A stretch of DNA of 64,000 nucleotides from Clostridia bacterium (GTDB taxonomy: Bacteria > Bacillota > Clostridia > Acetivibrionales > DSM-27016). Below the pieces are notes generated by a model. That model searched no databases. It was not told the origin of the DNA and worked only from the letters and a program-made list of their open reading frames with translations. Every line of letters starts with the position of its first letter. The first letter of the stretch is position 1. This document shows positions 7,944 through 62,501 of the stretch, one piece after another. The DNA lies in the NCBI GenBank assembly GCA_026414765.1, contig JAOAIJ010000043.1, positions 186,001 through 250,000 on the forward strand. Direction: 5' to 3'. Position numbers and translations under genes: made by a program.

Positions 7944-9540
7944 ATTGCTTGTTGCTGATGATGAACAGATTGTTCTGGATTCCATAAGGTATATTATTGA
8001 TAAGAATTTTGACGGTAATATTTCCGTAAGCACTGCAAGATCAGGCAGGGAAGCTATAGAAGCTGCTGAAACCCTCAAACCGGATATAGTGTTCATGGAT
8101 ATAAGCATGCCTGGAATCAATGGGATAGAGGCCATAAAAGAAATCAAATCAATATACCGTCAGGCAGTATTCATAATAATCACTGCATATGACCAGTTTG
8201 ATTTTGCCAAGGAAGCAGTAAAATTAGGGGTATATGAATACCTGCTGAAGCCTGTCAATAGAATGAAAATTGTTGAGATAATCAATAAATCAATTGAACT
8301 TATAGAAAATGAAAGGGAAAAGAGAAGGAAGGAACTTGAGCTTAAAGAAAGGCTTGAAAGTATAATTCCCATACTTGAAAACGGTTTTATATACTCAATA
8401 CTGTTCTTTGAAGATAATAGAAGGGAACTCGGATACTATAAGGAGTTTCTTAACATTACCGAAGAATATGGATACATAATGATTATTGAGTTTGGTGAAA
8501 CCAATGGAGATGGGGTTTTATCAAACAAAATAGGATTTAGTGTCAAGAGTCAGTCTTTCTACCCGTACTTCAGAGATACAATCAAACGTTTCTGTAAATG
8601 TATAGTAGGACCTGTTATGCTAAACAGAATTATTGCCTTTGTTATGGAAGACAGCCAGGAAGAAGAGTATGATCATAGGCTTAAAGCTTTAAAAGTTGCA
8701 GAGCAGATATACGAAATTATCACAGAAAAAACAGGTGCAGACTTTCAAATAGGTATAGGGAAGAGCTATAAAGGCATTGAAAATCTATGCAGATCCTATG
8801 AAGAATCCGTCAAAGCAATAAAAAAGGCTGGAAGCAAGGGTGTTGTGCACTATATGGATTTACCGGCTGAAATAAAAGTGGATACAGCATACATTGCAGA
8901 AATGGAAAAGACTATTATTGAGAAGGCATGTTCCGGCGATACGGATCTCTGTCTGCAAGCCTTTAATCAGATATTTGAATGTCTGCAGCTTGACTATGCA
9001 GACAACCTTGAACGTATAAGAACAAGGATAATAGAACTGATGGTTCTGATTCACCGCACTGTTGCTGAATATGGAGATGGAGAAGACGGAATTCTGACAG
9101 GGTATGACTATATTCATGAAATACTTGACATTAAGGATGCTATGATTCTGAAAGCGTGGTGTAAAGAACGCTTAAAGAACATTTCACACCTTGCAGGAAA
9201 TATAAGACAAAAAAAACTCAGCAAAATAATTGTTAATGCAAAAAAATTTATAGATGAGAATTACTTCAACGAGATTTCTCTTGACGATGTAGCCAGAGGA
9301 GTAAATATAAGCCCTAATTATTTTTGCAAGCTCTTTAAAGATGAGACAGGAGAAAATTACGTTGAATACCTTACTTTTATCAGAATTCAAAAAGCAAAGG
9401 AGTTTCTGGAGGAGGGAAAGTATAGTGTCAAAGAAGTATGTTACCAGGTTGGCTACAGTGATCCGAACTATTTCAGCCGGATTTTCAAAAAGGTTACGGG
9501 AATCACTCCGACTGAATTCAAGGATAGGACTCAGGAATAA
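7936..9540 (+). CDS. Response regulator, YesN/AraC type
   Basis: 534 residues. The receiver domain (LLVADDEQIV; phosphoacceptor Asp in IVFMDISMPGING; Lys in LLKPVN) is followed by a long linker with a coiled segment and a C-terminal AraC HTH pair (ISLDDVARGVNISPNYFCKLFKDETG and VKEVCYQVGYSDPNYFSRIFKKVTG regions). The start is a TTG at 7936 with GGGGGG upstream, overlapping the kinase stop. It probably activates the downstream sugar transport genes, by analogy with YesN of the XylFII-LytS system. Confidence 0.9.
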   Translation: MYKLLVADDEQIVLDSIRYIIDKNFDGNISVSTARSGREAIEAAETLKPDIVFMDISMPGINGIEAIKEIKSIYRQAVFIIITAYDQFDFAKEAVKLGVYEYLLKPVNRMKIVEIINKSIELIENEREKRRKELELKERLESIIPILENGFIYSILFFEDNRRELGYYKEFLNITEEYGYIMIIEFGETNGDGVLSNKIGFSVKSQSFYPYFRDTIKRFCKCIVGPVMLNRIIAFVMEDSQEEEYDHRLKALKVAEQIYEIITEKTGADFQIGIGKSYKGIENLCRSYEESVKAIKKAGSKGVVHYMDLPAEIKVDTAYIAEMEKTIIEKACSGDTDLCLQAFNQIFECLQLDYADNLERIRTRIIELMVLIHRTVAEYGDGEDGILTGYDYIHEILDIKDAMILKAWCKERLKNISHLAGNIRQKKLSKIIVNAKKFIDENYFNEISLDDVARGVNISPNYFCKLFKDETGENYVEYLTFIRIQKAKEFLEEGKYSVKEVCYQVGYSDPNYFSRIFKKVTGITPTEFKDRTQE

Positions 9541-32475: not shown

Positions 32476-33588
32476 ATGAAAGTTTTAAGAATATTGCTTG
32501 CTACATTTCTTATACTGGTTATTATAGGTGGCTTGGGATATATAGCTTATAGCTTGTTTTTTATGGGTGGTATGAATCATCAGGGGATGAATAATACGCC
32601 TGAAACTACAGCGCCAAGTCATAACCAAGCTGCTGATACAGGTAGCGGGCAGAATGTACAAAACCAGCATGGCAGCACTCATCAGGGAAATGCATCGCCT
32701 AATACTGCTGCAGTTCAGAGCAGGGACAGGCTGAATCAGGCTATAGGGATGATAAATCAGGCTATAGACTTAATAAGTATTGACCCGTACTCGAAGGCAA
32801 CACTCCCTTCGGCAAGTCAGGGCAACATACAATCAACACAAGGTGGGACAGTCAATGTATATCCAAACGGGAACACATCTGTAAATGTTGCTCCACCTGC
32901 CAATAATACCCCTAATAAACAGACACCGCCTGCAAATACTAATCAGGGTACAGTGAATACACAAGAAAAACAGAATTATGTTTACGATCAGGGTAAACTT
33001 CAGCAGCTTCATAGCGGCATATTCACACTAGCCCAAGGGATAATGACCATAAACCAGCTTGGGGATGACCTGCTTATCCAGTCGTCAATGGCGGAAACTA
33101 ATCCGCCGGACTATCGGACTCATGTTCAGAGATATAATATTGCTTTACAGAACAAAACAAAACTGAATAATGCGATTAACCTGCTTAACCAGGCATCAAC
33201 GCTTATTAATGTAAATCCGTATGGAGGTCCTGACGGATATCCGTACAATAAAGATGCAATGGCTCAACTTCACCAGGGGGTATTTAAGCTTGCACAAGGA
33301 ATGACAATGCTGAACAGACTGAATGAAGATTTTACAGCTCAGATGGCAATAGCTTCAAGTATGATACAGAGTATTACAAACAATGCATATCAGACACAAA
33401 CTATGAATCACAGTACAATGGGATTATTTTCCGGTATTAATACATCAACGGTATTCAATCTGATATTGATAGTTATGGTGGTTGGTCTGATTGCAGGAAT
33501 TTTAGGTGCTATTTTCAGTGTGTTCAGGAATGACAATACCCGGAGAACAGGCGGGAGTAATTCAGATAACGACTCAACATTACGCTAA
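32476..33588 (+). CDS. Cassette A, protein 1: anchored protein with duplicated helical domain
   Basis: 370 residues. N-terminal membrane span (about 4-29) followed by GGMNHQGMNN and a Gln/Asn/Thr-rich linker. Two related units each contain LNxAxxxxNxAxxLIxxxPY followed by LHxGxFxLAQGxxxLNxL (roughly residues 88-205 and 230-300). A second membrane span (about 322-350) ends in a short charged tail. I know no family name. The paralog at 57638-58834 has the same plan plus a zinc ribbon. First gene of a six-gene same-strand run. The two spans place the repeat domain outside the membrane (inference). Confidence 0.75.
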   Translation: MKVLRILLATFLILVIIGGLGYIAYSLFFMGGMNHQGMNNTPETTAPSHNQAADTGSGQNVQNQHGSTHQGNASPNTAAVQSRDRLNQAIGMINQAIDLISIDPYSKATLPSASQGNIQSTQGGTVNVYPNGNTSVNVAPPANNTPNKQTPPANTNQGTVNTQEKQNYVYDQGKLQQLHSGIFTLAQGIMTINQLGDDLLIQSSMAETNPPDYRTHVQRYNIALQNKTKLNNAINLLNQASTLINVNPYGGPDGYPYNKDAMAQLHQGVFKLAQGMTMLNRLNEDFTAQMAIASSMIQSITNNAYQTQTMNHSTMGLFSGINTSTVFNLILIVMVVGLIAGILGAIFSVFRNDNTRRTGGSNSDNDSTLR

Positions 33589-33602
33589 ACCGAGGTGATA
33601 AA

Positions 33603-34268
33603 GTGCCTGGTGGCCACAAAAACAACCTATTAATAAGGACAATCTTAACTTTAATAGCCGGAACTATAGCATTCGTATTTCTTTTCAATCAAATGACAGG
33701 AGGTGGAAACATGGATCATATGGGAGGAATGGCTGGAACAGGCTATGGATATTCAATCGATACTCTTTTAGGTGGATTTTTAATGCTGCTTATAAAGCTT
33801 CTATTGGCTGTATTGATTATTGCCGTAGTAGTCGGCATAGTTATGTGGATAAAGAATATATTTCTCAAGGATAGTACAGGAGGTACACAGTTTTTCCAGT
33901 CTATAAAAAATGATCCGGTACTAAAAACTATATCAATAATTACTATTGCTGTACTTGGAATAATACTTTTATTCGCACTGCTGGGAAGCTTTGGCGGTGT
34001 AGGGGTGAGATACGGGATGGAGAGTCATGTCGGCAGATATGGAGGGTTTAGTCCTGTCTTCAGTGTTGCGGGGCTTTTAAGCTTGCTCATCAGAGTTTTG
34101 ACTTTTATATTGGTGATATCCCTTATACTTGCACTATTAGGCTATTTGAAAAAACAATATGATGCAGGGACATTCAATTTTATGAAGACCGGTGGTCCGA
34201 ACCAAGGCAATACAGCTAATCAGGGTGGTAATACAAATACTAATGAGAATAACGCTAATACACAGTAA
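33603..34268 (+). CDS. Cassette A, protein 2: four-span membrane protein
   Basis: 221 residues from a GTG with GAGGTGAT upstream. Hydrophobic spans at about 11-30, 55-82, 108-130 and 152-180. The first loop carries GGGNMDHMGGMAG (Met/His), and the tail is Asn/Gly/Thr-rich. The span pattern and the segment LLGGFLMLLIKLLLAVLIIAVVVG resemble the protein at 55842-56270. Family not recognised. It sits 14 nt after protein 1. Confidence 0.72.
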   Translation: MPGGHKNNLLIRTILTLIAGTIAFVFLFNQMTGGGNMDHMGGMAGTGYGYSIDTLLGGFLMLLIKLLLAVLIIAVVVGIVMWIKNIFLKDSTGGTQFFQSIKNDPVLKTISIITIAVLGIILLFALLGSFGGVGVRYGMESHVGRYGGFSPVFSVAGLLSLLIRVLTFILVISLILALLGYLKKQYDAGTFNFMKTGGPNQGNTANQGGNTNTNENNANTQ

Positions 34269-34291
34269 AACTTAATATGGGAGAAATAAAA

Positions 34292-34801
34292 GTGGAAAAG
34301 ATTAGATTTGATTTTATAATTCACTGGCTCTGGACAGTTGCATTTGCGCTGCTTACATTGAGCGGACTTGCAATGGTTGGAGCAAAGTACGGGTGGCTTC
34401 TGAACTATGATATTGTATCTGCCGATTACGTGCATAGGCTTTCAGCAGCTGTATACGTCCTGCTTACATTTGTTTCCGTCGCTTATGAAGTTATAAGAGG
34501 AATAAGGAACGAAGATAAAAAGCTTGCTTGGTTTATGATAGGAAAAGGAGGATATCAGCTGTTTACTTTTATAACGACGCTGATATTCATAATAACAGGT
34601 GCAATCATATGGATATGCATGGATTCAAATATGACTGCTGTATCCTTTGCTCTATATATACATGAAAAACTGACTTATATAGTAGTTGCCAGTGTAATCT
34701 GGCATATTTATATGAAGTGCCACGCACTTGTCTGGCCCCGTTCTAAGTCTAAGCCAGGTAATAATAAGCCCGGTACAAAGAAGGGAACTGAAAGCACATG
34801 A
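34292..34801 (+). CDS. Cassette A, protein 3: b561-like cytochrome b
   Basis: 169 residues, four membrane spans, with His at about 11 (FIIHWLW), 48 (DYVHRL), 124 (YIHEKL), 138 and 144 (WHIYMKCHAL). This pattern matches small cytochrome b561 / formate-dehydrogenase-gamma-like di-heme proteins that pass electrons across the membrane. The GTG at 34292 is preferred to the ATG at 34277: GGGAG sits 9 nt before it, and it matches the paralog start (MNIRFDF versus MEKIRFDF). The paralog at 58834 lacks the last two spans. Confidence 0.82.
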   Translation: MEKIRFDFIIHWLWTVAFALLTLSGLAMVGAKYGWLLNYDIVSADYVHRLSAAVYVLLTFVSVAYEVIRGIRNEDKKLAWFMIGKGGYQLFTFITTLIFIITGAIIWICMDSNMTAVSFALYIHEKLTYIVVASVIWHIYMKCHALVWPRSKSKPGNNKPGTKKGTEST

Positions 34802-34835
34802 AAAAGTATCCATAAGCAAAGAGGAGGATAAAACA

Positions 34836-35144
34836 ATGATGCAAAAATCTTGGTTTAAGTTGTGCATATGGATTTTAGCTACTGCCTTCTTTTTTATGGC
34901 TTCGGGGATATTGATATCGGCTTTTAGTCCCGGTCCCACCGAACTTCAGGTTATGCAGTTCATGCGGGGGATGATGGAAGCGATGCACAGTTCTCTCATG
35001 GGATTGTCTATGACTATAGAGAATGACTTTGCTTTAAATAGGCTTATTACCAATGCTTCGGCTATTACACCCTTATTAATTGCATTAAGTATTGTGCTTG
35101 GGCTGATTATTAGGTTTCTCAGGAGGAATAAAAATGCCGGATAG
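34836..35144 (+). CDS. Cassette A, protein 4: Met-rich two-span protein
   Basis: 102 residues from ATG 34836 (GAGGAGG upstream). Two membrane spans (about 7-28 and 72-93) enclose a loop with MQFMRGMMEAMHSSLMG and IEND. The paralog at 59194-59490 keeps GPTE-x2-VM-x2-M-x-GMM-x-AM-x-SS-x-MG-x2-M-x-IEND, so the Met spacing is conserved. Such Met clusters are known to bind Cu(I) or Ag(I) in other proteins; that role here is inference. It overlaps the next gene by 11 nt. Confidence 0.75.
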   Translation: MMQKSWFKLCIWILATAFFFMASGILISAFSPGPTELQVMQFMRGMMEAMHSSLMGLSMTIENDFALNRLITNASAITPLLIALSIVLGLIIRFLRRNKNAG

Positions 35145-35490
35145 AAAAAAGCTTTACTTTTGGCGGCTTGCGCTAATATTTGGAGCAATTACTGTATTGG
35201 CACTGGCTGTTTCATTCGGCTTCAACAGAGAGAGAGAAGCAGGCATGATGGATACAAGCATGGGCAACATGATGAGCAGCATGCATCTTAAAAATATAAC
35301 GGTGTCGGATTTGATAAAACAGCAGGAAAAAATGGAAAGCGTGACAGGACAAGACAGTATGGCAGGACACCACAGCGGGGTTAGCAGCTTTTTGAACTCT
35401 GCTCATTACCTGACTACTGCTACAATCATAATCTTACTTCCGTTTATTGTAGCAGGAACAATATTCCTGGCAATAATATGGCTGAAATAG
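35134..35490 (+). CDS. Cassette A, protein 5: Met/His-rich two-span protein
   Basis: 118 residues. It starts with KKLYFWRLALIF before span 1 (about 9-29), then a loop with MMDTSMGNMMSSMHLKN and MAGHHSG, then span 2 (about 92-116). The paralog at 59575-59922 conserves MMD-x2-MG-x-MM-x2-MH-x2-N and the HH-x-G pair. AGGAGG precedes the ATG inside the previous gene. No named family. Probable extracytoplasmic metal-binding loop (inference). Confidence 0.75.
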   Translation: MPDRKKLYFWRLALIFGAITVLALAVSFGFNREREAGMMDTSMGNMMSSMHLKNITVSDLIKQQEKMESVTGQDSMAGHHSGVSSFLNSAHYLTTATIIILLPFIVAGTIFLAIIWLK

Positions 35491-35511
35491 AATGAAGGGA
35501 GATAAGATTTA

Positions 35512-36183
35512 ATGAGTATACTGGGAAATATCGGCTCATTGTATATGCTTATATTGATATTATTGTTAATTATAGGATTAGGACTATTAATAACAGCATT
35601 TACAAAGTATATATTCAATCTGGAAAACACAAAAAAGCAAAACAATAAAATGAATATTCGAAATGGAGGTTTGGTTATGCAGAATAACGGATGGCTAAAA
35701 CTTGCGCTTTTCTCCTTTATTGGAATAATTATCGCTGTTGCGGTTCTTAGCTTCATGTCACCCGGAGGCATGTCCGGATATAATATGACAGGACATGCGG
35801 GAATGCAGCCGGGTATGAGTGGAGCAATGGGGACTATGCCTATGGGCAGCATGGGTAATATGGGTAGCATGGGGATGATGAATATGTCTTCCGGAATGCA
35901 GCCTGATATGAATACAATGACTATGCACAGGTTAAATCAGATGCAGATGCAGATAAATCAGATGCAGCAATACATGATGAATAATATGGGTGGAATGCAG
36001 ATGCAATCAATGCCACAAGGTGGAATGAGCAACATGGGCGGAATGGGCATGATGGGTATGCCTATGGGCAATATGAGCGGGGGCGGAATGGGAATGATGA
36101 ACATGGGAGGAATGTCAGGAGGTTCGTCAGGCAGCATGTCGGGAGGTTCTTCAGGCGGCATGAGCGGAATGAGTATGATGTAA
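35512..36183 (+). CDS. Cassette A, protein 6: methionine-rich anchored protein
   Basis: 223 residues. Span 1 about 8-35; a second span at about 61-82 begins right after an internal Met (residue 56). The rest is dominated by MxM, GMxxM and NMGGM units, with a Gln/Met helix (RLNQMQMQINQMQQYMM) and a Gly/Ser/Met tail. An internal GGAGG (35665-35669) and ATG (35677) could yield a shorter protein that starts exactly where the independent gene at 56287 starts. Cu(I) binding is plausible but unproven. A terminator follows. Confidence 0.75.
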   Translation: MSILGNIGSLYMLILILLLIIGLGLLITAFTKYIFNLENTKKQNNKMNIRNGGLVMQNNGWLKLALFSFIGIIIAVAVLSFMSPGGMSGYNMTGHAGMQPGMSGAMGTMPMGSMGNMGSMGMMNMSSGMQPDMNTMTMHRLNQMQMQINQMQQYMMNNMGGMQMQSMPQGGMSNMGGMGMMGMPMGNMSGGGMGMMNMGGMSGGSSGSMSGGSSGGMSGMSMM

Positions 36184-57637: not shown

Positions 57638-58834
57638 ATGAAGTTCTTAAAAGGGTTCTTAGTATTATTTCTAATAACCATTATAATAGGTGGTCTTGGC
57701 TATATTGGATACAGTTTTCTTTACACGGATCATTCTGCTATGGATATGTCAGGGACACAGAACACGACCGCAGTTGAATCGACAGACAAGACTAATCCGG
57801 CTTCAAGCGCTCATCAAAACATGCAGGGGATTCAGCAGGACAGCTCCAAGCATAATCAGAATAGTTCCGGCGATCAGCAATCCTTAAATAATCATGTGGG
57901 TCTGAATCAGGCAAACGTGATATTACTGAATAAAGAGAAACTCAATAAATCGACAGCAGTGCTCAAGGAAGCACTGGAGTTAATGACAGTTGACCCTTAT
58001 GCCCCAGATAAGGGAAATTCTGAGGATACCTCAGATATGCAGGCGGGTAATTCCAAAAAAGATAATGCTGCTCCTTCAGGTGCGGTGTCTCCAAATACTA
58101 CAATGAAGAATATGGGGACAGCATACGATCCTAATAAGATGGAAAAATTGCATTCTGGATTATATAAAATTTCTGTAGGGATGGCATTATTGGAGCAATT
58201 GAATAATGAACTGACCTACCAGGCAGAAAATGCAAGCTCTGGTATTCAAAATCTGGTTCAGTATTACTCAAATCAGTATAATCAGACTGTACAAAACAAA
58301 AATAAACTGAATCAGGCATATATATATGTCAGCGAGGCAGCTAATCTTGTCAATATCAATCCTTACGTTTCTACAGACGGTCTAGTTTACGATAAGAATA
58401 GAATGAACCAGATACATCAGAGTGTATTCAAGCTTGCTGAGGGTGTGGCTGCACTGAACCTTCTTAGTGATGATTTTACAAAACAGACAATAATCCTATC
58501 AAATACCGTTCAGACATATATAAATAACACCAGCAGCAATACAGATACCGCTCAGATGAACCATACAGCCATATCTGCCGGCTTATTCGGGGGACTGTTT
58601 GAAAATGTAAGTCCAGCCAGTGTGATTAATGTAATACTTATCATATTTGTAACAGCCTTGATAATTGGGATTTTGGGTTTTATATCAAACCTCTTGAAGA
58701 CTCCTGTACAAAAGAAGGTGAAAAAAGAAGATGCCGCAAAACACAGGGTAGAGTGCAAATTCTGCGGTAAAGAAATGAATGCCGAATGGAAATGCTGTCC
58801 GGATTGTGGTACAGAAAAAGTAGCTGAAGCATAA
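57638..58834 (+). CDS. Cassette B, protein 1: duplicated helical domain plus zinc ribbon
   Basis: 398 residues from ATG 57638 (GGGGTG upstream). N-terminal span (about 4-28), DHSAMDMSG, a Gln/Ser linker, two repeat units (each LN-x-A...PY followed by (L/I)H-x-(S/G)-x-(F/Y)K(L/I)), a C-terminal span near 330-358, then zinc ribbon VECKFCGKEM...CCPDCGTEK. It parallels cassette A protein 1 but gains the ribbon. It overlaps the cytochrome start by 1 nt. Confidence 0.78.
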   Translation: MKFLKGFLVLFLITIIIGGLGYIGYSFLYTDHSAMDMSGTQNTTAVESTDKTNPASSAHQNMQGIQQDSSKHNQNSSGDQQSLNNHVGLNQANVILLNKEKLNKSTAVLKEALELMTVDPYAPDKGNSEDTSDMQAGNSKKDNAAPSGAVSPNTTMKNMGTAYDPNKMEKLHSGLYKISVGMALLEQLNNELTYQAENASSGIQNLVQYYSNQYNQTVQNKNKLNQAYIYVSEAANLVNINPYVSTDGLVYDKNRMNQIHQSVFKLAEGVAALNLLSDDFTKQTIILSNTVQTYINNTSSNTDTAQMNHTAISAGLFGGLFENVSPASVINVILIIFVTALIIGILGFISNLLKTPVQKKVKKEDAAKHRVECKFCGKEMNAEWKCCPDCGTEKVAEA

Positions 58835-59178
58835 TGAACATCCGTTTTGATTTCATTATGCACTGGCTTTGGGCGATAGTATGGTCACTGCTTGTACTTA
58901 GCGGATTCAGTATGATTGGGGCAAAATACGGATGGCCACTTAATTTCAATTACACAACAGCTGATTACGTTCATCGTATGGCAGCAGCAGTTTTTGTAAT
59001 AATGACTTTCATATCTATTGTTTATGAAGTATACAGAAATATAAAAAAAGATACGAAACCTCTTGCATGGTTTGTGTCTGGGAAAAGCGGCTATCAGCTG
59101 TTTACATTTATAACAACGATGATAATGTCATGCCCTGATATGGCCAAAGAAGACAGTAAACGAGACTTAAAAGGTTAG
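58834..59178 (+). pseudogene. Cassette B, protein 3: cytochrome b561-like, C-terminal half missing
   Basis: 114 residues aligning with the first ~95 residues of the cassette A cytochrome (RFDFIMHWLW, LSGFSMIGAKYGWPLN, ADYVHRMAA, GYQLFTFITT). The sequence then jumps to a short hydrophilic tail (SCPDMAKEDSK). Spans 3 and 4 and their heme His are gone, leaving His10 and His47. The reading frame is intact and the tail can be matched to the end of the paralog, so an in-frame internal deletion is likely. It may be inactive, or work as a half-cytochrome. Confidence 0.7.
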
Positions 59179-59193: not shown

Positions 59194-59490
59194 ATGCAGA
59201 AACCCTGGTTCAAACTATTCATATGGTTTTTGGCAACATTCTTCTTCTATCTTGCTTCCGGAGTCATAATCTCAATGTTGAAGCCCGGCCCTACTGAAAA
59301 TGAGGTTATGAAGTACATGACGGGTATGATGAGCGCAATGGACAGTTCCATGATGGGCGTGGCAATGAATATTGAGAATGACGGAGTTCTTAGCTCTGTA
59401 ATAGCTTTATCTTCTTCTATGGCAGTACCTATTATCCTGGTGTGTGTGATTGCAGGTTTTGCAATCAGGTCTGCACAGAGGGGGGACTAG
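59194..59490 (+). CDS. Cassette B, protein 4: Met-rich two-span protein
   Basis: 98 residues from ATG 59194 (AGGAGGAAAAGG upstream; GTG 59191 also possible). Begins MQKPWFKLFIWFLATFFFY; the loop has GPTENEVMKYMTGMMSAMDSSMMGVAMNI-type Met spacing; second span near 75-93. Clear paralog of 34836-35144. Confidence 0.75.
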   Translation: MQKPWFKLFIWFLATFFFYLASGVIISMLKPGPTENEVMKYMTGMMSAMDSSMMGVAMNIENDGVLSSVIALSSSMAVPIILVCVIAGFAIRSAQRGD

Positions 59491-59574: not shown

Positions 59575-59922
59575 ATGTTCCATAAAAAGAAAATTAACTT
59601 TTGGCGGTTGACTTTCATATTTATAGCGCTTATTGCGGTGACACTTGTATTTCAGTGGAGTCATCCACAGGAGAATAAAGCCCCGATGATGGATAAGAAC
59701 ATGGGTGGTATGATGAAAGAAATGCATGTATCAAATGCTTCAATATATGATCTGTTCAGTATAGATGATAATAAGAGTGCTATGAATAGTATGAGCAGCC
59801 ATCATCGGGGACAATCAGACATAGTATTCAAGCTTAATTTTCTTACGACCGGTATAGTATTCTTTCTTTTACCCTTGATAATAGGAGGAGCTGCAATACT
59901 GGGAATCGTATGGGTGAAGTGA
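59575..59922 (+). CDS. Cassette B, protein 5: Met/His-rich two-span protein
   Basis: 115 residues. KKKINFWRLTFIF leads span 1. The loop carries APMMDKNMGGMMKEMHVSN and MSSHHRG. Span 2 is near 88-112. Paralog of 35134-35490 with the metal-type motif conserved. It is separated from protein 4 by 84 nt, whereas in cassette A the genes overlap. Confidence 0.75.
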   Translation: MFHKKKINFWRLTFIFIALIAVTLVFQWSHPQENKAPMMDKNMGGMMKEMHVSNASIYDLFSIDDNKSAMNSMSSHHRGQSDIVFKLNFLTTGIVFFLLPLIIGGAAILGIVWVK

Positions 59923-60039: not shown

Positions 60040-60711
60040 ATGAATATGAATTTATTGGGGGCGGCAGGTAGTCTATACATGGTTGTTTTGCTGATACTTC
60101 TTTTCATGGGTACAGGCTTTGCACTATGGCGATTCATCAGTTTTCTGATGGATCGGGGTACAACCAAGTACGAGACGGCTGAAAAGGCCAAAATAGCAGT
60201 ACAGGCTAAAGCAACAGATAATAAAGCTGAATCAAAAGAAAAAATGGGAGGTCGTATTATGGCAAACAATGGATGGATAAAACTGGCGGTGTTTTCTTTG
60301 GCAGGAATTTTAATTAGTTTTACAGTTCTGGGTCTTATCTCATCAAATGGCAACATGAACATGAATGGACAAGGAACTAATGTTCACCAGCAGCATCAGC
60401 AGGGGATGTACGGTAATATGAATATGCAGAATGGTATGAATATGAATTCACAGATGGGCAATATGCAAGGTAATATGAACATGAACAACAATGATATGCT
60501 GCAACAGCAAATCAACCAGATACAGCAGCAGTTGATTCAGATACAACAGCAATTAGGTATGATGAACGGTGGCATGGGTGGAAACATGCAGATGCAGCAG
60601 GGAAATATGAATAATATGGGTGGAATGGGTATGATGAATGGAATGATGGGCATGGGCAATATGCAGCAAGGTAGTGGAAACATGAGCAGTGGGGGAATGA
60701 GCATGATGTAG
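60040..60711 (+). CDS. Cassette B, protein 6: methionine-rich anchored protein
   Basis: About 223 residues from ATG 60040 (AGAGG upstream; TTG 60022 also in frame). Span 1 about 8-30; a charged linker; an internal GGGAGG (60246-60251) and ATG (60259) opening MANNGWIKLAVFSLAG with span 2; then MNM, NMQ and GGMGMM units around a Gln/Met helix. Paralog of 35512-36183. The second half equals the independent short Met-rich protein, so two products from one gene are possible. Confidence 0.75.
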   Translation: MNMNLLGAAGSLYMVVLLILLFMGTGFALWRFISFLMDRGTTKYETAEKAKIAVQAKATDNKAESKEKMGGRIMANNGWIKLAVFSLAGILISFTVLGLISSNGNMNMNGQGTNVHQQHQQGMYGNMNMQNGMNMNSQMGNMQGNMNMNNNDMLQQQINQIQQQLIQIQQQLGMMNGGMGGNMQMQQGNMNNMGGMGMMNGMMGMGNMQQGSGNMSSGGMSMM

Positions 60712-60748: not shown

Positions 60749-60794
60749 AAGATATAGCTAGGGCGAATCAGTAGATTCGCCCTAGCTATATCTT
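60749..60794. terminator. 21-bp perfect stem between Met-rich and multicopper oxidase genes
   Basis: Arms AAGATATAGCTAGGGCGAAT(C) pair perfectly over 21 bp around AGTA. No T-run follows on the plus strand, so termination is doubtful. It could set mRNA stability between protein 6 and the oxidase. Confidence 0.6.
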
Positions 60795-60869: not shown

Positions 60870-62501
60870 ATGGCTTTGGGCAACAGGATGTTGGCGGTTT
60901 TATCTATAACAGCTGTAATAGTGGCAGCTGCAGCAGGTCTGACCTGGTATAATAACTATTCACCGATGATGCAGAAAAGTATGGATATGAAGGGAAGCAC
61001 AGATACATCCGCTACAGGTAAATCATCTGAAATTACTTATCAAAACACTCATGATTACGCAAAAAACGTTGTAAAACCACGTGATGGTCAACCGCTTAAG
61101 AAGTTTTCAATAGTGGCTAAGGAAAGCAGTTTAGAAATCGCACCTGAAATAAAAATACCCGTATGGACATACGATGGCTCAGTTCCCGGGACAGAGATCA
61201 GGGTAACTCAGGGAGATTTTGTACAGGTAGAACTTAAGAATGAACTAAAAGAACCTGTAACTATACATTGGCATGGATATCCGCTTTTATCGGCTATGGA
61301 TGGTGTGCCGGGAATCAACCAGGACTCTGTGAAACCGGGAGAAACCTTCGTATATGAATTTTCAGCAGATGTAGAAGGAACATACTGGTACCATTCACAT
61401 CAGGAAAGCTCATCTCAGGTAGATAAAGGCCTTTATGGAGCGTTGATAGTCGAGCCTAAGGAAAAAATAAAAGAGTACAAGGACTTTACACTTATACTTG
61501 ATGAGTGGATGAGTGACCCAAGTGGGATGGAAGAAATGGAGGGCATGGGAGGAAGTAATGAGAAATCTGATGGTCATATGGAGGGTATGGACATGACTTC
61601 TGACGGTACTCCGATGACAGAAGAAGAAATGATGGCATTTATGTATGATATTTATACTGTAAACGGTAAATCCGGAGATCTCATAAAACCTTTGAATGTG
61701 AAAAAGGGCGATATGGTAAGGCTGAGATTCATCAATGCAGGCTACCGTTCCCATGGAATCCATATACCGGGCCAGAACATAAAGGTAGTGAGTACTGATG
61801 GACAGGACATAAATGGAGCAGGATTGATTAAGGACAAAATAATTAATATTGCTCCCGGAGAAAGATATGATATAGAGTTCACAGTGACTTCAAACGATAA
61901 TTTTGTGATAGATGCCCATGATGACAATGCTTATAATGAACAGCTCAGAATACCCGTAAATGTGGAAGGTGGAAGCGGAAATACACTGGAGGAAGCCATG
62001 GTTGCTGAATATGCATCCTTTGATCTGGCTAATTACGGAACGCCTACTGAAGGAAAGTATTCAATGAACCAACAGTTTACAGTAAACTACAATGCCGAGC
62101 TCAATATAAAGACAGATGGAAAGACACAGCAATATACAATAAACGGTAAAGTTTTCAGTGAGTTACCTGCTCTTAAGGTAAAGACCGGCGATTTGGTAAA
62201 AATGGCCTATGAAAACAAGAGTGAGGTTGATCACCCTATGCACCTTCACGGACACTTCTTCCAGATATTGTCCAAGAACGGTAAGACTGTCAGTGGAGCA
62301 CCTATTATGAAGGATACTCTATTAGTGAAACCGGGAGAGAAATATGTGGTTGCCTTTAAGGCAGATAATCCTGGCAATTGGGTTCAGCACTGTCACGAAC
62401 TACATCATGCTGCCGGAGGCATGATGCAGAGCGTAGAATACACAGATTTCAAATCCAATTATACGCCTGACCCTAATAACAAATTCAATAAACCTGAATA
62501 G
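60870..62501 (+). CDS. Membrane-anchored multicopper oxidase
   Basis: About 543 residues: an N-terminal span (about 7-24) and three cupredoxin domains. Copper sites: HWHGYPLLSAMDGVPG, YWYHSHQ, HPMHLHGHFFQIL and HCHELHHAAGGMM, giving types 1, 2 and 3 copper with an axial Met. Between domains lies a Met-rich stretch (MEEMEGMGG, MEGMDMTSDG, MTEEEMMAFMYD), as in CueO-like Cu(I) oxidases. The family oxidises Cu(I) or organic substrates using O2, which is striking for a presumed anaerobe. AGGAGGG lies close before ATG 60870; TTG 60876 is an alternative. Confidence 0.93.
   Translation: MALGNRMLAVLSITAVIVAAAAGLTWYNNYSPMMQKSMDMKGSTDTSATGKSSEITYQNTHDYAKNVVKPRDGQPLKKFSIVAKESSLEIAPEIKIPVWTYDGSVPGTEIRVTQGDFVQVELKNELKEPVTIHWHGYPLLSAMDGVPGINQDSVKPGETFVYEFSADVEGTYWYHSHQESSSQVDKGLYGALIVEPKEKIKEYKDFTLILDEWMSDPSGMEEMEGMGGSNEKSDGHMEGMDMTSDGTPMTEEEMMAFMYDIYTVNGKSGDLIKPLNVKKGDMVRLRFINAGYRSHGIHIPGQNIKVVSTDGQDINGAGLIKDKIINIAPGERYDIEFTVTSNDNFVIDAHDDNAYNEQLRIPVNVEGGSGNTLEEAMVAEYASFDLANYGTPTEGKYSMNQQFTVNYNAELNIKTDGKTQQYTINGKVFSELPALKVKTGDLVKMAYENKSEVDHPMHLHGHFFQILSKNGKTVSGAPIMKDTLLVKPGEKYVVAFKADNPGNWVQHCHELHHAAGGMMQSVEYTDFKSNYTPDPNNKFNKPE

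Follow-up and report, generated by a model that had tools for sequence, protein, structure and literature searches.

Copy B of the cytochrome encoded in the window, the whole stretch of 64,000 nucleotides from a Clostridia bacterium analysed here, probably arose as a duplicate of a four-span b-type cytochrome gene and was broken recently; two intact copies, A and C, are present in the same genome. A deletion of 131 nt has cost copy B its TM3 and most of its TM4 and shifted the reading frame, and the operon in which it lies (operon B) has also lost almost all of gene 2. The copy B product, if made, would hold neither heme in the usual way and would be dispensable, electron transfer would be carried out by copy C in trans and/or by copy A, and the remaining genes of the operon (1 and 4-7) would stay in use. 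Ordinary decay of a spare copy, and not the evolution of a new half-cytochrome, is the most likely explanation for the truncation.

A search of the source genome (G000; 4.56 Mb in 53 contigs, 96.88% complete) recovered three members of the family, copies A, B and C. Copy A, located at C43:220298, is 62% identical to copy B, while copies B and C are sisters in the phylogenetic tree (support 90/92), with branch lengths of 0.17 and 0.077, respectively. The presence beside copy B of intact related copies (the sister C and the paralogue A), one of the features by which a pseudogene is recognised, is accompanied by another, a frame-disrupting lesion relative to the homologues. DNA homology between the regions of copies B and C forms one block at 82.6% identity (58739-59117, BLASTN), which starts at the gene-2 remnant and stops at the deletion. 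Among the genomes compared, the genus of the source is represented by the source alone and its taxonomic family by two, the other of which is without the gene. The full-length copies A and C belong to the prokaryotic cytochrome b561/Ni-hydrogenase cytochrome b family (PF01292), with scores of 32.4 and 36.2, respectively, against a gathering cut-off of 30.1, whereas copy B, which is without TM3-TM4, scores 26.5 bits over residues 8-98 and remains below the cut-off. The features considered are listed in the table.

Table. Features of operon B and the related cytochrome copies (window positions, except for copy C, which is given by contig)
Feature	Position	Strand	Remarks
Gene 1, two-repeat protein, 398 aa	57638..58834	+	C-terminus fused to gene-2 remnant
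Gene-2 remnant, 31-residue zinc-ribbon tail	58739..58831	+	homologue of the gene-2 C-terminus; 71% to the gene 2 of copy C
GTAG in copy B where copy C has GGAG	58820..58823	+	Shine-Dalgarno-like AAGGAG cut to AAG
Copy B cytochrome ORF	58834..59178	+	114 aa: TM1-TM2 and frame-shifted 17-residue tail
Retained cytochrome part, codons 1-97	58834..59124	+	His10 and His47 kept; 82% protein identity to copy C
Deletion junction, exact base not resolvable	59118..59126	+	131 nt absent compared with homologues
Ancestral C-terminus remnant, old frame CHALIWPKKTVNET-stop	59126..59170	+	out of frame in copy B
Gene 4, 98-residue membrane protein, intact	59194..59490	+	
Gene 5, 115-residue membrane protein, intact	59575..59922	+	
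Gene 6, Met-rich protein	60040..60711	+	
Gene 7, multicopper oxidase	60870..62501	+	Pfam Cu-oxidase_3/_2
Copy A cytochrome, full length	34277..34801	+	in paralogous operon 32476-36183
Copy C cytochrome, full length, 155 aa	C8:8737-9204	-	82% identical over the first 98 residues of copy B

The open reading frame of copy B described in an earlier note on this DNA was found to exist on the forward strand, and its match to copy A up to ...GYQLFTFITT was confirmed, with 60 of the 96 residues from 2 to 97 identical; the absence of spans 3 and 4 and a break at about 59.12 kb were likewise observed. The loss is, however, not in frame as had been supposed. The spacing of the GYQLFTF and CHxL codons is 168 nt in each of the 16 homologous stretches compared (copies A and C and 14 others) but 37 nt in copy B, so that 131 nt (3x43+2), which is not a multiple of three, are missing from copy B, together with TM3 and most of TM4, and an in-frame deletion is ruled out. 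The spacing between the GYQLFTF and WHIY motifs is 150 nt in 25 of the 25 rows carrying both motifs 100-200 nt apart, which correspond to 23 distinct loci, copies A and C included, after merging of L034 with L040 and of L038 with L042; as only spacings of 100-200 nt were taken, this count is blind to a loss like that in copy B and gauges constancy only. Seven more divergent loci (L041 and L064-L069) were left out of it because the motif pattern was unmatched.

The overlaps with the neighbouring genes, which had been described as preserved on both sides, are kept upstream (1 nt, TAATG) but not downstream, where 12 nt lie between the stop of copy B and the GTG of the next ORF (59191) and 15 nt between that stop and the ATG (59194). 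A GGAGG stretch is found at and just past the copy B stop. Upstream of the gene, the Shine-Dalgarno-like AAGGAG of copy C is replaced by AAAGTAG in copy B. By the same measure only GGA is found in G005b and no Shine-Dalgarno-like stretch precedes the listed start of the full-length copy A, so that the weak Shine-Dalgarno stretch of copy B says little alone. A promoter scan gave 27 hits against 26.2 expected and carries no information.

The DNA beyond the junction still encodes the ancestral C-terminus. When read in the old frame as CHALIWPKKTVNET, its first ten residues are exactly those of copy C and four of the ten codons differ, all of them silently; the last four residues are unlike those of copy C, in a part of the tail that is variable across the family. 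The copy B ORF reads the same DNA one frame off, as MSCPDMAKEDSKRDLKG. The proposal that this tail can be aligned to the end of copy A is not upheld, as the peptide that the ORF encodes there has a score of 15 against the copy A tail, which equals the shuffle mean and is reached by 966 of 2000 shuffles, whereas the old-frame peptide scores 48, a value reached by none of 2000 shuffles. Homology of the tail as read to the copy A tail was accordingly rejected. A reading of the intact copy C in the shifted frame likewise meets no earlier stop and terminates at an equal distance (+53), and the tail and the stop of copy B, the latter ending 8 nt past the old stop, are therefore inherited accidents. 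The copy B ORF owes its continuation past the junction solely to the chance absence of stops from the shifted frame, an absence shared by copy C.

Conserved His residues occur in TM1, in TM2 and twice in TM4 of copies A and C. In a search of the PDB, the family profile matched FdnI best, the cytochrome b556 subunit of Escherichia coli formate dehydrogenase-N (1kqf_C; E-value 5.5e-5 for the sequence and 0.0061 for the matched stretch); two further hits (E about 0.08) are designed proteins. In the alignment, His18 of FdnI corresponds to His10 in TM1, and His155 and His169 to the TM4 residues His123 and His137, respectively, while His57 falls within a few columns of His47; the four FdnI positions were checked by counting along the alignment. 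We take the heme pairs of FdnI to be His57/His155 and His18/His169, each consisting of one TM1 or TM2 His and one TM4 His. Compared with FdnI, copy B is without both TM4 ligands, and a four-span core with two bis-His heme sites is consequently absent from it. The two heme His residues whose loss had been noticed earlier are thus confirmed as lost and are the TM4 positions aligned with H155 and H169 of FdnI. A third conserved His, that of the CH motif, is also out of the copy B protein, its codon being still present in the DNA out of frame. Since each heme of the FdnI type needs one TM4 His, the loss of electron transfer, also suggested in the earlier note, can fairly be inferred.

Like FdnI, the NCBIfam formate-DH gamma model gives a match, but at a score far below its cut-off. 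FdnI differs in having 217 residues against 154 profile positions, and no catalytic partner genes were seen. Judged by Pfam, the genes assigned to the operon are not subunits of a hydrogenase or a formate dehydrogenase, and include instead Met-rich proteins and a multicopper oxidase. The fold search with copy A gave no match below an E-value of 0.001, and its best, weak matches were to E. coli hydrogenase-1 cytochrome b (4gd3/6g94, E 0.02-0.055). The AF2 models are mediocre (mean pLDDT 65.3 for copy A and 63.4 for copy B) and were used only for the helix positions and the weak fold match. The portions of the literature consulted held nothing on point for FdnI heme ligands, half-cytochromes, the operon in the genera named below or gene decay.

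Comparison of copies B and C over 98 codons gave a dS of 0.72, a dN of 0.10 and a dN/dS of about 0.14. Most of this constraint is older than the deletion. The remnant keeps ten of its ten conserved old-frame residues, and the deletion is therefore recent: under free drift since the split of B and C, at least 8.6 amino-acid-changing hits would be expected in these ten codons and none is seen, for which the probability under neutral drift is about 2e-4 or less. The corresponding 95% bound places the deletion within the last 25-35% of the branch of copy B, in an estimate that equates the silent rate with the neutral rate, assigns 50-69% of dS to the branch of B and rests on the ten codons, the four variable tail codons being excluded. 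The deletion is thus shown to be young compared with the B-C split. Residues absent from ten type-B relatives number eight in copy B and three in copy C (manual count, junction codon 98 excluded), and this excess of private residues in B, together with its longer branch, is a hint of relaxation. The branch of B is about twice that of C, the retained part has a dN/dS of 0.14, and there has been too little time since the deletion for relaxed constraint to show.

The operon common to the related loci encodes (1) a two-repeat protein, (2) a membrane protein, (3) the cytochrome and (4, 5) small membrane proteins; the Met-rich gene 6 is usual and the multicopper oxidase gene 7 is present in several loci. 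It is shared by loci of Pseudobacteroides cellulosolvens, Thermotalea, Geosporobacter, Anaerosolibacter and several MAGs, and in the type-B loci gene 2 carries zinc-ribbon-like Cys pairs, as judged by eye. In operon B, genes 1 and 4-7 each keep an uninterrupted full-length reading frame, while gene 2 is gone save for a 31-residue tail on gene 1; ten other type-B gene-1 ORFs were inspected, and all of them end without a gene-2-like tail of this kind. One related genome (G037) has a full cytochrome but no gene 2, which indicates that the loss of gene 2 alone is tolerated and is no mark of decay. A 20-bp hairpin followed by T residues was observed on the minus strand between the Met-rich and the multicopper oxidase genes (60749-60794).

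Only gene 2 and gene 3 are present at locus C, exactly the two genes damaged at locus B, and TBLASTN searches (E up to 1e-5) of the 18 kb examined around copy C detected neither gene 1 nor genes 4-7. Loci B and C are complementary in gene content. The gene 2 of copy C (L004, 9204-9734) is short, with 176 aa; among nine relatives' loci the stop-to-stop length of gene 2 is 174 aa in G028 and 230-396 aa in the other eight. One membrane module, the first of a repeated pair, appears to be missing from the copy-C gene 2.

The first 18 kb of contig C8, in which copy C lies, are AT-rich (33.4% GC) and correlate with the reference tetranucleotide profile at an r of 0.963; the remaining two thirds or so of the contig fit the genome (r of 0.986 and 0.989). 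For comparison, 16 other stretches of the same genome, three of which form part of the reference profile, range from 0.934 to 0.991 and seven relatives' loci from 0.793 to 0.963, and as these ranges overlap, composition alone cannot part the 18 kb around copy C from the relatives. The AT-rich part of C8 may be an island. A contaminant origin for the copy C contig was considered and dropped, since the rest of C8 fits the genome and copy C is the nearest relative of copy B. The AT-rich stretch also carries a Gabija defence pair (GajA, E 4.9e-261; GajB, E 3.2e-174; L004, 1152-4629) about 4 kb from copy C. The idea that copy B is a piece of a mobile element or a virus was likewise rejected, BLASTN having found no plasmid match and TBLASTN no relative in viral contigs.

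The family is represented in 5 of the 58 genomes of the order, 5 of the 391 genomes of the class sample and 8 of the 398 genomes of the phylum sample, the source genome being included in each. Outside the source genome, 28 distinct loci were obtained (10 from the order, 6 from the class, 8 from the phylum and 4 named ones), four of the 12 named loci being counted as extra and the other eight taken as the same places. The match reaches query residue 145 or beyond in all 28, against residue 98 in copy B, and none of them ends where copy B does.

Other irregularities were observed among these loci. The type-B cytochrome of Pseudobacteroides cellulosolvens (G028; L023, 10208-10303) has a frameshift after residue 29, and of the multicopper oxidase of this operon TBLASTN recovers no more than the 70 C-terminal residues (8089-8298); L023 represents either independent decay of the same type of operon or, for the frameshift, a sequencing error. 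A distant cytochrome homologue (L065; G521:C57:5362-5808) has one TGA inside the match. In the pair L034/L040, a record titled 'Calditrichales bacterium MX18-03' and a locus of G207 are apparently one and the same, and the name on the record may be wrong, as the genome search puts G207 in the window's own class.

Among the other explanations for copy B, an error of assembly or consensus, in which copy B would be complete on the chromosome and the assembly would have created the 131-nt gap, is improbable. The genome is a draft of 53 contigs and the lesion is private to it among those searched, as such an error would predict; yet there is no second intact B-like place in its contigs (three hits only), the nearest paralogue, copy C, is at 82.6% DNA identity too distant for a simple repeat collapse, and a second, separate lesion, the loss of gene 2, lies about 380 nt away. 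It is very improbable that the ORF survives as a translational spacer, with ribosome passage keeping gene 4 coupled and the peptide having no role of its own. The position of the stop, so soon after the old one and 12-15 nt before the next start, with GGAGG at hand, would suit such a role, but the shifted frame ends alike in copy C, which has no gene 4 behind it, and the fit between stop and start in copy B is therefore no adaptation.

The earlier note had envisaged a half-protein retained for metal binding or able to dimerise, and a functional TM1-TM2 product, working as a homodimer with His10-His10' and His47-His47' pairs or as a metal-binding helper, would agree with the open ORF, the upstream overlap, the constraint on the retained part (dN/dS 0.14) and the retention of His10 and His47. 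It is nevertheless even less probable than a spacer, given that the frame-shifted tail is an inherited accident, that the deletion is young, that every one of the 28 loci in other genomes continues well past the point where copy B stops and that intact copies A and C exist; the frame-shifted tail, the recent deletion and the intact sister in the genome likewise tell against the proposal as it was originally made. The AF2 model of copy B (pLDDT 63.4) says nothing either way. The least probable reading of all is a two-span mini-cytochrome that forms a four-helix bundle as a homodimer or partners the intact copy C from a distance, the operon being split and the functions of gene 2 and gene 3 having moved to another locus.

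Copy B as a decaying duplicate has the usual marks of such genes, namely a frameshifting deletion, an intact sister and silent-only change in the ten remnant codons. It differs from the typical case in its broken frame, which happens to run on uninterrupted to slightly beyond the old stop and gives it the look of a tidy short gene. Points that weigh against decay are the uninterrupted genes 1 and 4-7 of operon B, the dN/dS of 0.14 over the retained codons, the four differing residues at the end of the remnant and the deviating composition around copy C. We infer that its product would be non-functional and that copy C may serve operon B, although the absence of genes 1 and 4-7 from the neighbourhood of copy C and the shortness of its gene 2 count against this.

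The recognition of a clean-looking short ORF as a frame-shifted remnant removes a tempting false lead. The present case also suggests that gene 2 and the cytochrome gene may leave the cluster when a second copy of that pair sits elsewhere, which makes gene 2 and gene 3 together the natural unit for a test of function in trans.
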